A stretch of DNA of 64,000 nt from Alphaproteobacteria bacterium (lineage in GTDB: Bacteria; Pseudomonadota; Alphaproteobacteria; Caulobacterales; Caulobacteraceae), in NCBI GenBank assembly GCA_025359785.1, contig JANYET010000067.1, positions 1 through 64,000 of the forward strand, in the 5' to 3' direction. Under the pieces are notes generated by a model. The model did not search any database and was not told the DNA's origin. It worked only from the letters and a program-made list of their open reading frames with translations. Made by a program: the position numbers and the translations under genes. Below are positions 1,343-15,915 of the stretch, in pieces; positions within the stretch are counted from its first letter, which is position 1; every line of letters begins with the position of its first letter.

Positions 1343-3130
<1,788 letters not shown>

Positions 3131-8812: not shown

Positions 8813-8827
8813 GAACAAAGAAAGAAC
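8813..8827 (-). promoter_or_regulatory. LexA (SOS) box upstream of ycaQ
   Basis: The plus strand reads GAAC-AAAGAAA-GAAC; on the gene's strand this is GTTC-N7-GTTC, the direct-repeat LexA site of alphaproteobacteria. It overlaps a promoter-like TTGTTC-N17-TAGACT on the minus strand, so bound LexA would block RNA polymerase. The AT-rich spacer resembles the second box at 15257-15271. Confidence 0.75.
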
Positions 8828-11941: not shown

Positions 11942-12420
11942 CCGCCGCCCGTGCCTTTTGGCGCCGCGCCCGTGGGGAAGATGGCGCGGGTGATGGTGTA
12001 GATGACCGTGCCCAGCTGGATGGTGGTGGCGCCGAGCAGCGCCATGATCACCTGACCATCGATGATCCGGTCAGCGGGCCGGATGTGTCCGGCCGCAAGC
12101 TGGCTGCAATCCTGCCAGAAGATGAAGCCCAGGCCGATCAGGACCCCCACGTTGGCGATCGCGAACAGCACCATCACCCGGTCGGCGAAATTCTTCCGGA
12201 TCGACAGGTCGCCGATCGCGATCGTATCGGCCGTGGAGCGGAATTCGCGGACTTCGTGATTGAGGCTGACCGGGCTCGGAACAGCGAGGCCGGGCCCGGC
12301 CGGACTTGACGCCAGGGTGTCGAGACTGACGGGCGCGACTGGGCGCGCGACCGGGGGCGCCGCGGATGGGCGCGCGGCCTTGGCCTTCGTGGATCGCCGC
12401 TTGGCGGGAGGCCGCGCCAT
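11935..12420 (-). CDS. Two-helix membrane protein of unknown function
   Basis: 161 aa. A Lys/Ala/Pro-rich basic N-terminus (about 70 residues, likely disordered and cytoplasmic) leads to two membrane helices ('VMVLFAIANVGVLIGLGFIFW' about 83-103 and 'VIMALLGATTIQLGTVIYTI' about 124-143). It begins 4 bp after the stop of the small protein at 12425-12640 on the same strand, so the two are probably an operon. I do not recognise the family. The 3' end overlaps gshA by 7 bp in convergent orientation. Confidence 0.65.
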   Translation of the reverse strand: MARPPAKRRSTKAKAARPSAAPPVARPVAPVSLDTLASSPAGPGLAVPSPVSLNHEVREFRSTADTIAIGDLSIRKNFADRVMVLFAIANVGVLIGLGFIFWQDCSQLAAGHIRPADRIIDGQVIMALLGATTIQLGTVIYTITRAIFPTGAAPKGTGGGQ

Positions 12421-12424
12421 GGGC

Positions 12425-12640
12425 TCAGCCGGCGAGAGAAATCTTCAGCGGCACCCCGTCCTTGTTCACCAGGGTCACGGTCTGGTCCGCTGCGTCGGAA
12501 TTCCGCGCCGCGACCCGCGCCAAGGCGATCGCCTTGCGGATCACCGCGGTATTGCTGGTGACGCCAAAGACACCCTTCAGTTCGTCGATAGCCTCGGCTG
12601 TGCCGGGGTCAACCTGGAAGCTGGTCTGCACGTTAGGCAT
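12425..12640 (-). CDS. Small ribbon-helix-helix-like protein
   Basis: 71 aa from the ATG at 12640, which has CAGGAG 8 nt upstream; the track starts it nine codons earlier. The opening 'MPNVQTSFQVDPGTAEAIDELKGVFGVTSNTAVIRKAIALARVAAR' looks like a short beta strand followed by two helices, as in CopG/Arc-type DNA-binding dimers; the C-terminal tail is beta-like. It directly precedes a membrane-protein gene on the same strand. Function, whether antitoxin-like or autoregulator, is not shown by the sequence. Confidence 0.65.
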   Translation of the reverse strand: MPNVQTSFQVDPGTAEAIDELKGVFGVTSNTAVIRKAIALARVAARNSDAADQTVTLVNKDGVPLKISLAG

Positions 12641-12979
12641 AGGAATACTCCTGAGGTCGAGCAGCATATCGTATCAAAGAGACATGCAATTCAACTGATT
12701 TCACCATGATATATATACGATATTCCCACGCTTTCAATCCCGCGTTGGGTCGGATCGGATGGTCGGCAATCCATACGCGCGAGCAATGCGCGTTTAGGTC
12801 GGCGCGTTTAGGTCGACACGATACCTATTGCCAAGCTTCGAGCAGCCACTTTGCCGCGATAGGTATCGTGTCGCCTCAGTCTCGCAAATCGCCGCGCACA
12901 GCCGGAGCGGTTTCAGAACTCGCAGCAGGTTCGCACTCATACAGTGTAGCTTCGGACCTCGCGCGTCGGAGGAGGGTCC
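12641..12979. other. 339-bp intergenic region with AT-rich segment, tandem repeat and long inverted repeat
   Basis: Separates the RHH-like gene (minus) from the hypothetical gene at 12980 (plus). Left part: unusually AT-rich for this genome, including ATGATATATATACGATAT near 12707-12724, a probable divergent promoter/operator zone. Middle: 14-bp tandem repeat and 15-bp inverted repeat, listed separately. I see no credible ORF on either strand. Confidence 0.6.
12788..12873. repeat. 14-bp tandem duplication overlapping a 15-bp perfect inverted repeat
   Basis: GCGCGTTTAGGTCG occurs twice without a gap (12788-12801, 12802-12815). Overlapping its end, CGACACGATACCTAT (12814-12828) is matched by the exact reverse complement ATAGGTATCGTGTCG (12859-12873) across a 30-nt spacer; a G-T pair and two more pairs extend the stem inward. 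No poly-T follows, so this is unlike a plain terminator. Confidence 0.75.
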
Positions 12980-13516
12980 ATGACACTTTCAGACTTGGCA
13001 TCCATCGGCACTTTCGTCAGCGCCGTCGCCGTCGTTGTTTCGCTGGTCTATCTGGGAAGCCAGATCCGCCAGGCGCGCGTCCATCAGCAGGCCGCGATCC
13101 GCTCCGAGCGAGCGAGCCGTATGGCGGCGATGAACATTGCCGCGCAGGAGCCCTCTATCGCCGTCGCGATCGCGAAAGGCGTCACAGGCTCCGACGACAT
13201 CAGCGGCACGCAATACGCACAGTTTGCGCACTTCTGCCGAGCTTCGTTCTACAACGCCGAGGACACCTACTTTCAGCACAAACTCGGCCTCATCTCGGAA
13301 GAGGCGTTCGCCAGCTTCGTCGCCAGCGTGCAAGGCTGGGCGTCGCGCGCGCCGGGCATGCGCGCCGCCTGGAAGCAGTTTCGCGGACTGTTCGTCAGCG
13401 AGTTCGCCGAGTGGATGGATCGCACGCTCGCACAGGCGCAGGTCGCTCAGCCCATTGACCCCTTCGCCCAGTGGCGGACGCTGGTCGAGGCCGAGAACCG
13501 CGAACCATTGTCGTAG
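12980..13516 (+). CDS. Membrane-anchored hypothetical protein
   Basis: 178 aa. One N-terminal membrane helix (about 7-27, 'IGTFVSAVAVVVSLVYLGSQIR') is followed by a charged helical region. The layout matches a common alphaproteobacterial family of small 'YLGxQIRQ' anchored proteins without assigned function. A strong ribosome site (GGAGGAGGG) precedes the ATG. It is the first gene of a same-strand run with the MDIHKP paralogs. The soluble part would face the cytoplasm if the helix is a signal anchor, but topology is not certain. Confidence 0.7.
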   Translation: MTLSDLASIGTFVSAVAVVVSLVYLGSQIRQARVHQQAAIRSERASRMAAMNIAAQEPSIAVAIAKGVTGSDDISGTQYAQFAHFCRASFYNAEDTYFQHKLGLISEEAFASFVASVQGWASRAPGMRAAWKQFRGLFVSEFAEWMDRTLAQAQVAQPIDPFAQWRTLVEAENREPLS

Positions 13517-13593
13517 CCCGCGCGACGGGCCATCCGGCGCCCATGGCGTGTCACCCCATCCATGGTTAAGCTTCCTCGGCAAACGAGGGCGTC

Positions 13594-14322
13594 ATGGACA
13601 TCCACAAACCCAAGCCGTGGCGCGGGGCCCGCGAGTTCCTGAAGGAGATCGGCACCATCGTGATCGGGGTGCTGATCGCGCTCGGCGGCGAGCAGGCGGT
13701 CGAGTGGCTGCACCACGACGCCGAGCTGCGCGACACCCGCGAGGCCTTGATGAAGGAGATCGCCACGAACGTGCGGCGCGCCGACTTCTCAGCCCGCGAA
13801 GACCGTTGCGTGTTCGGCGCGCTGGATCGGTACGTCGAGCTGGCGCGGGCCGGTCGGCCGAAACCGCCGCTGCCCTGGGTCAACCCGCTCTACACGACCA
13901 CGATCTGGGACGCCTCCCAGAGCGGAGCCGTAACGCGCCTGCCGCTTGAGGAAAAATTCCGCCTCGCGACGTTTTACGACAGCGTACGGGCTCTGCAGGG
14001 GTTGGGCGCGACCCAAAGGGCCCAGATGACCCATGGCGCCCGCTACCTTTCCGTTCCCGATTTGACGCTGGCGGAGGTCCGCGAGGTCGTTATGACCGCC
14101 AGCGAGCAGCAGACGATCTTGCGGGCGAAAATCGCCAACGAGAAGGCGCTGGTTCAGCAGGCGGCGGCATTGGGCGTCCATCCAACGCGCGTCAGCGCGT
14201 CGGCGGAGCAATCGGCCATCAGGGCCTGCGAACTCGCCGGGCTTCCGCCACCGCGCTTCGATCAACCGCTCTCGCCGCCGGCGCCGGACGCATTCACCGC
14301 CGATATCCGGAAGGCCGACTGA
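13594..14322 (+). CDS. MDIHKP-family membrane-anchored hypothetical protein, copy 1
   Basis: 242 aa. The opening MDIHKPKPWRG...REFLKEIGTIVIGVLIALGGEQAVEW has a basic lead-in, one hydrophobic helix (about 22-36) and a conserved E-Q-x-V-E-W segment, shared with the next gene and with a decayed third copy. The remainder is predicted helical with no catalytic motif I can recognise. Similar proteins are frequent, often in multiple copies, in Caulobacterales; their role is unknown. It ends 3 bp before the second copy, so the two are co-transcribed. Confidence 0.75.
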   Translation: MDIHKPKPWRGAREFLKEIGTIVIGVLIALGGEQAVEWLHHDAELRDTREALMKEIATNVRRADFSAREDRCVFGALDRYVELARAGRPKPPLPWVNPLYTTTIWDASQSGAVTRLPLEEKFRLATFYDSVRALQGLGATQRAQMTHGARYLSVPDLTLAEVREVVMTASEQQTILRAKIANEKALVQQAAALGVHPTRVSASAEQSAIRACELAGLPPPRFDQPLSPPAPDAFTADIRKAD

Positions 14323-14325
14323 GCC

Positions 14326-15060
14326 ATGGACATCCACAAGCCCAAGGCCGCACGCAGCTGGCGCGAATTTCTCATCGAGATCGGGACCATCGTCTGCGGC
14401 ATCCTGATCGCACTCGGCCTGGAACAGGTGGTGGAGTGGACGCACTGGCAGGAAAAGGCCCACGAGGCGCGGAGCTCGATCCACAAGGAGCTTACACGGG
14501 CCTATGTGCTTGCCGAGGAACGTATCGCCCAGCGGGATTGCGCCAACGCCTATCTCGATCAGCTTGCCGCCGACGTGGAGTCCTCTCCCGCGGTTTGGAG
14601 GCCGCGTAACACCGCCTGGTGCGGTATCGCCACTCTGTTCCACTATCGCTCTATCGGTGGGCGGCCGTGGCCGACGGAGGTCTGGCGATCCATCGAGGCG
14701 GAAGGCGTCGTGTCCCATTTCGGAGGGGACTACAAAGCCAAAGCGCCGTTCATCTTCAACTTTATCGACTCCATCCACGCCATGGGGGTCGAGGAAATGT
14801 ATCTGGCGCCCGAGCTCGATCCGTTACGCAGACCGCTGGTGCTGACGCCCGACGGTAAACTCAGGCTGCTTTCGACGATCGCCCGACTCCGGCGGCTGAA
14901 CATCAATCTGGCGCTCACCAGCCGACAACTGCAGGTCGAGATCGCGCGGCTCGATCCGCCAGGCGCGACGGAGCTGGAGGCGGACCGGGCCGCCATCCCG
15001 AATTTCCTCTCGCGGGCGGGGGTTATGCTGAATCCTCAGCCGACACCAGCCCCAAGGTGA
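14326..15060 (+). CDS. MDIHKP-family membrane-anchored hypothetical protein, copy 2
   Basis: 244 aa and clearly paralogous to the preceding gene: MDIHKPKAARSWREFLIEIGTIVCGILIALGLEQVVEW at the N-terminus, same length and same helix position. The C-terminal two-thirds have diverged strongly, so the duplication is old or the family's outer part evolves fast. The stop codon overlaps the first codons of a third, truncated copy. No enzyme motif seen. Confidence 0.75.
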   Translation: MDIHKPKAARSWREFLIEIGTIVCGILIALGLEQVVEWTHWQEKAHEARSSIHKELTRAYVLAEERIAQRDCANAYLDQLAADVESSPAVWRPRNTAWCGIATLFHYRSIGGRPWPTEVWRSIEAEGVVSHFGGDYKAKAPFIFNFIDSIHAMGVEEMYLAPELDPLRRPLVLTPDGKLRLLSTIARLRRLNINLALTSRQLQVEIARLDPPGATELEADRAAIPNFLSRAGVMLNPQPTPAPR

Positions 15061-15065
15061 TGAGC

Positions 15066-15281
15066 ATGGACATCCACAAACCGAACGCGCGCTACGGCCG
15101 AGCGCGAGCACGCAGCAAGCTGTCGGTCGATACTCGAACGACGGGCTCGGTGATCCTAGCGCATAACGGCCTTCGGAGCTTTCATCCGCGAACCTACGAG
15201 TCCCAGAGCCCGCGCCCGCGATTTCGACGGCTCGGCCTTGACGCCGAACTCTCCATGTTCTATCTTTGTTCTAAATCATGA
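15066..15281 (+). pseudogene. Decayed third copy of the MDIHKP family
   Basis: An ATG at 15066 begins MDIHKPN, exactly as the two upstream paralogs begin, but the reading frame then loses the conserved IGTIV...LIALG helix and the EQxVEW segment and ends after about 70 residues of Arg-rich sequence. The end of the frame contains a full promoter and LexA box for the next gene, which argues that the tail is not coding. I read this as a 5' remnant of a third tandem copy. The track lists it as 15057..15281. Confidence 0.6.
15238..15271 (+). promoter_or_regulatory. Promoter with overlapping LexA (SOS) box
   Basis: TTGACG (15238-15243), a 17-bp spacer, TATCTT (15261-15266): a good sigma-70-type promoter. 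The LexA box GTTC-TATCTTT-GTTC (15257-15271) covers the -10, as expected for repression. Transcription should start near 15273, only about 5 nt before the ATG at 15278, so the message would be almost leaderless. Confidence 0.78.
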
Positions 15282-15859
15282 CGTCCACTGACCCCCGCAG
15301 CCAACAGCTCTCCGACCTGGCCGATTGCGCCTATCGGCTGGGCCTGGCGTTCGGGGCGGCGGTGGAGGCGGCGCAGGGCACGGACCGGTGGCTGGGCTAT
15401 TTCAACGCCTTCGACCGCTGCTTCTTTGCCGTTCGGGTGGCCACGGCGCTGCAGCTCCGCCTCGGCCGCGCGGCCGCTGAGCCGCGCGAGGCGGCCTCGG
15501 ACCGGGAGGACCTCATCGAGCGGCCCGATCCGCCGGAAACGGACGGCCGCGACGGCGGATACGACGACCGCGACCGCGACCGCGAGACCGAACGCGCCAG
15601 CCTGCCGATCCTGCTGCGCACCCTCGAAGATGTCGCCGCCGACGCCGCGGCCCTGCCGGGCCCGGAGCCGGCGGAACTCCCCACCCTGCGCGAGCTCTTG
15701 TCCCACGCAAAAGCCGAACCAAGCCAAGCCCAGGGCCTGCGCGCCCAGCTGACCGGGTCCGGCGCAGCCGCCGCGCCTTCCGCGCCGACTCGCCCTGCGG
15801 CATCCAATGTCGGCCAGGTGCTGGCGGCCCGCCGCGCCACCGGCCCACCGCGCCGCTGA
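15278..15859 (+). CDS. Uncharacterised protein predicted to be SOS-induced
   Basis: 193 aa. The N-terminal 70 residues look helical and ordered ('LADCAYRLGLAFGAAVEAAQ...FNAFDRCFFAVRVATALQLRLG'), the middle is an acidic Arg/Asp-rich linker ('GYDDRDRDRETER'), and the C-terminus has a helical patch and an Ala/Pro tail. I recognise no known domain, no membrane helix and no signal peptide, so it is probably cytoplasmic. A LexA box lies over its -10, giving direct evidence for DNA-damage control. It may be a checkpoint, repair-accessory or mobile-element-derived protein; nothing in the sequence decides. Confidence 0.75.
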   Translation: MTSTDPRSQQLSDLADCAYRLGLAFGAAVEAAQGTDRWLGYFNAFDRCFFAVRVATALQLRLGRAAAEPREAASDREDLIERPDPPETDGRDGGYDDRDRDRETERASLPILLRTLEDVAADAAALPGPEPAELPTLRELLSHAKAEPSQAQGLRAQLTGSGAAAAPSAPTRPAASNVGQVLAARRATGPPRR

Positions 15860-15879
15860 GCGGGAAGGCCCGCCCCGAT

Positions 15880-15902
15880 CCTCCTCCCCTTGTGGGAGGA
15901 GG
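15880..15902. repeat. CCTCCTCCC / GGGAGGAGG inverted repeat
   Basis: Perfect 9-bp arms with a 5-nt loop, between the convergent SOS-controlled gene and the DUF427 gene. It may act as a bidirectional terminator and belongs to the same dispersed CCTCCC-type family as 868-888. Confidence 0.6.
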
Positions 15903-15915
15903 GCGAGACCTGCTC

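Follow-up and report, generated by a model that had tools for sequence, protein, structure and literature searches.

A candidate LexA-controlled gene from a multicopy, lineage-restricted protein family of Caulobacteraceae

The window gene, its promoter and its product

In a 64,000-nt stretch of DNA from a Caulobacteraceae bacterium, perhaps of the genus Phenylobacterium (contig JANYET010000067.1 of assembly GCA_025359785.1; this whole stretch is called the window here), we examined a gene that lies near one end of a lineage-specific island and that is preceded by a predicted promoter overlapped by a LexA-type box (Table 1). Just upstream of it, at 13594-15060, are two tandem genes whose products start with MDIHKPK, followed by a truncated third at about 15066, and a Pfam search of the MDIHKPK genes returned nothing. 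Three genes similar to these lie next to the closest homologue of the window gene (L010) in genome G184, at a different site.

Table 1. Positions of the window gene, its predicted control elements, the parts of its product and the surrounding island
Feature	Position	Strand	Basis or remark
Lineage-specific island (~4 kb) with the window gene, between gshA and a DUF427 gene	11942..15915	.	
-35 element TTGACG	15238..15243	+	sequence; nearly all family members have TTGAC or a close variant upstream of their box
LexA box GTTC-TATCTTT-GTTC, GTTCTATCTTTGTTC	15257..15271	+	overlaps the -10
-10 element TATCTT	15261..15266	+	17-nt spacing from TTGACG
Predicted transcription start	15272..15274	+	inferred from the -10; leader 4-6 nt, near-leaderless
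Coding sequence, 193 aa	15278..15859	+	translation; member of an unannotated family
N-terminal helical hairpin, aa 1-69, common to the whole family	15278..15484	+	alignment; low-confidence AlphaFold model
Charged Arg/Asp/Glu-rich linker, aa 70-106	15485..15595	+	translation, alignment, model
Second conserved stretch ASLPILLRTLEDVAADAAALPGPEPAELPTLRELL, aa 107-141	15596..15700	+	alignment; partly helical in the model
C-terminal tip RRATGPPRR, conserved in the window's subtype	15830..15856	+	

The first-pass annotation of this DNA had described a TTGACG-N17-TATCTT promoter with a GTTC-N7-GTTC box lying over the -10 element, and the coordinates that we obtained for these elements (15238-15271) confirm the arrangement. 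It had also placed the start of transcription about 5 nt from the ATG, in agreement with the leader that we predict when initiation is set 6-8 nt downstream of the -10; 6 nt separate the end of the box from the ATG at 15278. A GTTCN7GTTC operator overlapping the promoter is a feature of LexA regulon members, and the window gene has such an operator, while carrying no site of the DriD type described below for some of its sisters. The second LexA box that had been reported in the window was likewise found, as GTTCTTTCTTTGTTC at 8813-8827 on the minus strand, upstream of a gene for an AlkZ-like/YcaQ DNA glycosylase (Pfam PF06224, E=3e-68).

The first-pass annotation had recognized no domain in the product, and our searches of Pfam, NCBIfam, PHROGs, PADLOC and PDB sequences gave no significant match to any described family. 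Weak Pfam matches to TetR, GcrA and others fell below the cut-off and were not believed. The helical N terminus and acidic Arg/Asp linker proposed earlier agree with the translation and with an AlphaFold model made with two sequences, which places helices at residues 6-32, 38-67 and 97-124 at a confidence too low for a fold search (mean pLDDT 48). Arg53 is invariant in the shared N-terminal 70 residues, and the second conserved stretch is followed by a variable Pro/Ala-rich tail, the tip of which is specific to the subtype and reads ATGPPRR in that of the window gene. Many other members end in [ST][GSA] (32 of 86, against about 3 expected from composition), and the tails are otherwise unalike; the serines of the tip are encoded by both TCN and AGC codons. 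Such a tip is possibly a degron or a site for binding a partner. We compared 14 pairs of family genes and obtained dN/dS values of 0.15-0.53 (0.25 for the window gene and its closest homologue), which indicate that the protein is under purifying selection.

A lineage-restricted family and its LexA-type boxes

When 199 genomes were searched with the protein, 25 credible locations emerged, all of them within a single genus and up to five per genome, and a paralogue with the same promoter lies at C50 in the window's own genome. These 25 close homologues were selected by protein alone. In 24 of them a LexA-type box without mismatch lies 1-6 nt upstream of the start codon, and the 25th (L017) has a box with one mismatch; the box is kept at homologues chosen without regard to it.

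More distant members were reached by looking for other boxes that abut an ATG. Comparison of profiles A1 and A3 aligned 71 N-terminal columns (E=1.2e-5), and a profile built without any window-type sequence found the window protein at 8e-8; these comparisons join the distant members to the window protein's family. With the wider profiles, we counted at least about ten members in the window's own genome and from at least 6 to at least 15 in several relatives, all of these counts being lower bounds drawn from the best 15 candidates per genome. One member with a LexA box in the window's genome (L317, G000:C15) lacks a large internal segment, so that its N-terminal start runs directly into the ICRDLG end.

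The family is present in five genera of the family-level group, and profile searches showed it to be almost absent from 337 genomes across the class, with one degraded match outside that group. A single-protein scan of named genomes gave no relative, and an alignment scan of named genomes gave only one, L041, in a metagenome bin labelled Pseudomonadota. We looked for a common neighbour or operon partner of the family members and found neither, and a literature search for papers on the family found none. Judging from these sequence searches, we conclude that the window gene is one copy of a multicopy, lineage-restricted family, which the first-pass annotation, confined to the window, could not show.

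Several observations bear on the identity of the box. We located lexA in 14 genomes, the window's own included, and its promoter carries a GTTCN7GTTC-type box in all 14; in the window's genome this promoter has GAACACCTAGAGAAC, which reads GTTCTCTAGGTGTTC on the opposite strand. GTTCN7GTTC is also the published LexA motif of Caulobacter crescentus (PMC12700426). On the strength of the lexA promoters and the published motif, we consider that the box upstream of the window gene is, by sequence, the lineage's own LexA box. As in the LexA regulons of Caulobacter and other alphaproteobacteria, the operator lies over the promoter, and the same type of box is found here at lexA and at genes that resemble DNA-repair genes, namely those for the AlkZ-like glycosylase and a ComM/YifB-like protein. 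In the window's genome, further LexA-type boxes precede a ComM/YifB-like gene and a radical SAM gene (L065, L320), and several others (L064, L068, L072, L078) precede phage-like genes that appear by eye to be terminase-small-subunit-like or portal-like.

The frequency of the box is above chance. The sequence GTTCTNNNNTTGTTC occurs 19 times in the window's genome, compared with once for a reversed control. A fuller pattern, TTGAC-N15-19-GTTCN6TGTTC-N0-6-ATG, which misses the window gene itself (its spacing is 14), gave more than 60 matches, distributed over 22 of the family-level group's 199 genomes; its reversed control gave no match.

LexA-type and DriD-type promoters

Across homologues the ATG lies 0-6 nt after the box, and in most members it lies only 0-3 nt after it, so transcription is expected to start at the AUG or within a few bases of it. 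In C. crescentus, 375 leaderless mRNAs are translated as well as others (PMC4117421). By analogy, leaderless translation of these messages is plausible and would not be unusual in itself.

Some of the sisters carry a different site in place of the box. DriD is a LexA-independent activator of the response to DNA damage. Its site is ATACGAC(X)7GTCGTAT, and it covers the -35 in structures of DriD with RNA polymerase (PMC12340889). In the first set that we assembled, TACGWC-N7-GWCGYA begins 40-44 nt upstream of the ATG in eight members that have no LexA box; all eight belong to the window's genus. This palindrome fits the DriD consensus, over the -35, and DriD may bind it, although the commoner form, TACGTC-N7-GACGCA, departs from the site known from the DriD regulon (didA, bapE, recJ, dnaG) at two bases, one inner and one outer.

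As a guard against selection bias, we turned to 80 further members from a protein-profile search, 76 of which had DNA upstream. Of these, 31 have a LexA box without mismatch beside the start (27 of them in the window's genus), and 22, also of the window's genus, have a DriD-type site between -40 and -44, plus one doubtful case. Among the 30 DriD-type sites, the core bases are nearly invariant, and TACGTC/GACGCA is preferred over TACGAC/GTCGTA; with these variant bases, the sites are candidate DriD sites by form and place. Both kinds of site occur together at L137, which has a DriD-type site upstream (1405-1423, plus strand) and a LexA box at -15 from the ATG. DriD-type sites were also seen at genes outside the family: one lies 21 nt before the ATG of a 151-aa non-family gene in genus g3 (L101, 2414-2906, plus strand), with a LexA-type box some 900 bp away, and another lies 110 nt before a gene in G108 that looks, from reading its sequence, like KilA-N (L060, 11262, minus strand).

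Neither type of site was found in another 22 of the 76 members. Thirteen of these 22 come from genus g21, and among the rest several have a wrongly assigned start or a frameshift. Most of the 13 have a dyad of the TTGCA-N3-TGCAA type close to the promoter; the g21 loci with the dyad are L149, L155, L157, L159, L478-L487 and L489, and lexA in the same genus has the usual LexA box. Because the g21 members carry this different dyad, LexA or DriD control does not extend to the whole family. We considered Cada2 (a B-box of GCAA plus CGG) for the g21 dyad and rejected it, the dyad being symmetric and having no CGG at the right spacing.

On a tree of the proteins, members of the LexA and DriD types are intermixed: a minimum of five changes is required for the DriD label, of which well-supported branches make three unavoidable, and the DriD-type L039 pairs with L175, a LexA-type member of the same genome. 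This distribution bears on whether the box is simply baggage, copied along with each gene and conserved through descent without selection for control by damage. Copies do arise together with their promoters, as such an explanation requires. However, at about 30% identity homologues still have both GTTC halves intact, with different spacers and different upstream DNA, and descent leaves unexplained why a DriD-type site at a constant position has taken the place of the LexA box. We therefore regard mere inheritance as highly improbable. The apparent, repeated placement of members under one or the other damage regulator suggests that the family most likely acts in the damage response.

Spread of the copies and a possible role

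The genes gshA and DUF427 that bound the island are about 30-80 bp apart in many relatives, and none of the 29 loci that we examined has a family member between them. The closest relative of the window copy is 78% identical and occupies a different site. When we compared paralogues at different sites, DNA similarity started 20-29 nt before the box, which is the -35, and ended at about the stop codon. Repeats that break assemblies tend to sit at contig ends. In G108, nine or so copies that are 97-100% identical have unrelated DNA upstream, and most of them lie at contig ends.

These sharp edges, the near-identical copies in G108 and a window copy found in an island absent from relatives, with its nearest kin elsewhere, raise the potential that the family consists of selfish cassettes, minimal promoter-plus-ORF units whose damage-linked expression serves their own spread and not the cell. 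We saw neither a transposase nor terminal repeats or a target duplication, though, and searches of plasmids, phages and viral contigs gave no match to the family, nor did any promoter-pattern match in the viral contigs have a family member downstream. A few family positions are common to different species, purifying selection acts on the protein, and equally sharp edges could come from gene conversion. Weighing both sides, we think it unlikely that the family exists for its own propagation.

The first-pass annotation had proposed a SidA/DidA-like test of overexpression on cell division. By comparison with SidA and DidA, the product would be an inhibitor of division, made on damage, that delays cytokinesis. 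In favour of this comparison are only the shared regulators: the family is apparently under control of LexA and DriD, which regulate sidA and didA, respectively (PMC4211646, PMC12340889). SidA, however, has 29 residues (PMC4211646), whereas the window product has 193, is highly charged and multicopy, and showed no sequence relation to either inhibitor. LexA and DriD also drive many other functions, including bapE, recJ and dnaG, and ten or more inhibitor genes in one genome would be odd. We consider an inhibitor of this kind improbable.

We favour a role in the damage response, in which the family promoters, fused to the start codon, would answer to one of two damage regulators, a LexA repressor over the -10 or a DriD activator over the -35. 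At the window gene, LexA bound to the -10 would block RNA polymerase; RecA on single-stranded DNA would trigger cleavage of LexA, the promoter would fire, and the message would be translated from an AUG at its 5' end. We infer LexA binding, DriD binding, induction and leaderless translation as steps of this scheme from the positions of the sites. The products may be adaptor or modulator proteins induced by damage, with a helical domain that binds a partner in repair, replication or the cell cycle. Neither a partner nor a fold or an enzyme motif was found. The products may be modules that bind other proteins and that carry a recognition tip or degron at the C terminus. Since the adaptor or modulator role leans on a shape taken from a poor model, we offer it tentatively, as doubtful.

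LexA control of the window gene is, in our view, very likely, and a role for the family in the damage response is likely. We also think it quite probable, with some room for error, that the window gene is a LexA-controlled member of a damage-response family; the earlier suggestion of a new DNA-damage response gene gains support from the box at homologues picked by protein, the motif at lexA and the DriD-type sites at sisters. On the broader proposal we are evenly divided: that this is a rapidly multiplying family of damage effectors, with at least 15 paralogues per cell in some cases, in which every copy is a minimal promoter-plus-ORF unit, control is exchanged between LexA and DriD, and what is conserved is the trait of being made on damage and not obedience to a particular regulator.

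SOS regulons are usually viewed as comprising a few dozen, mostly single-copy genes. The known LexA regulon of C. crescentus, with 47 genes in 31 units (PMC12700426), is not described as containing a multicopy family whose box is fused to the start codon. In the genomes studied here, one unannotated family adds many predicted damage-inducible genes per genome, apparently served by both known damage regulators. An operator that abuts the AUG would offer a clean natural system for studying the repression of leaderless messages. If our interpretation is true, the damage response of these bacteria would include a large arm that has gone unrecognised, and it would become testable which outputs LexA and DriD share.
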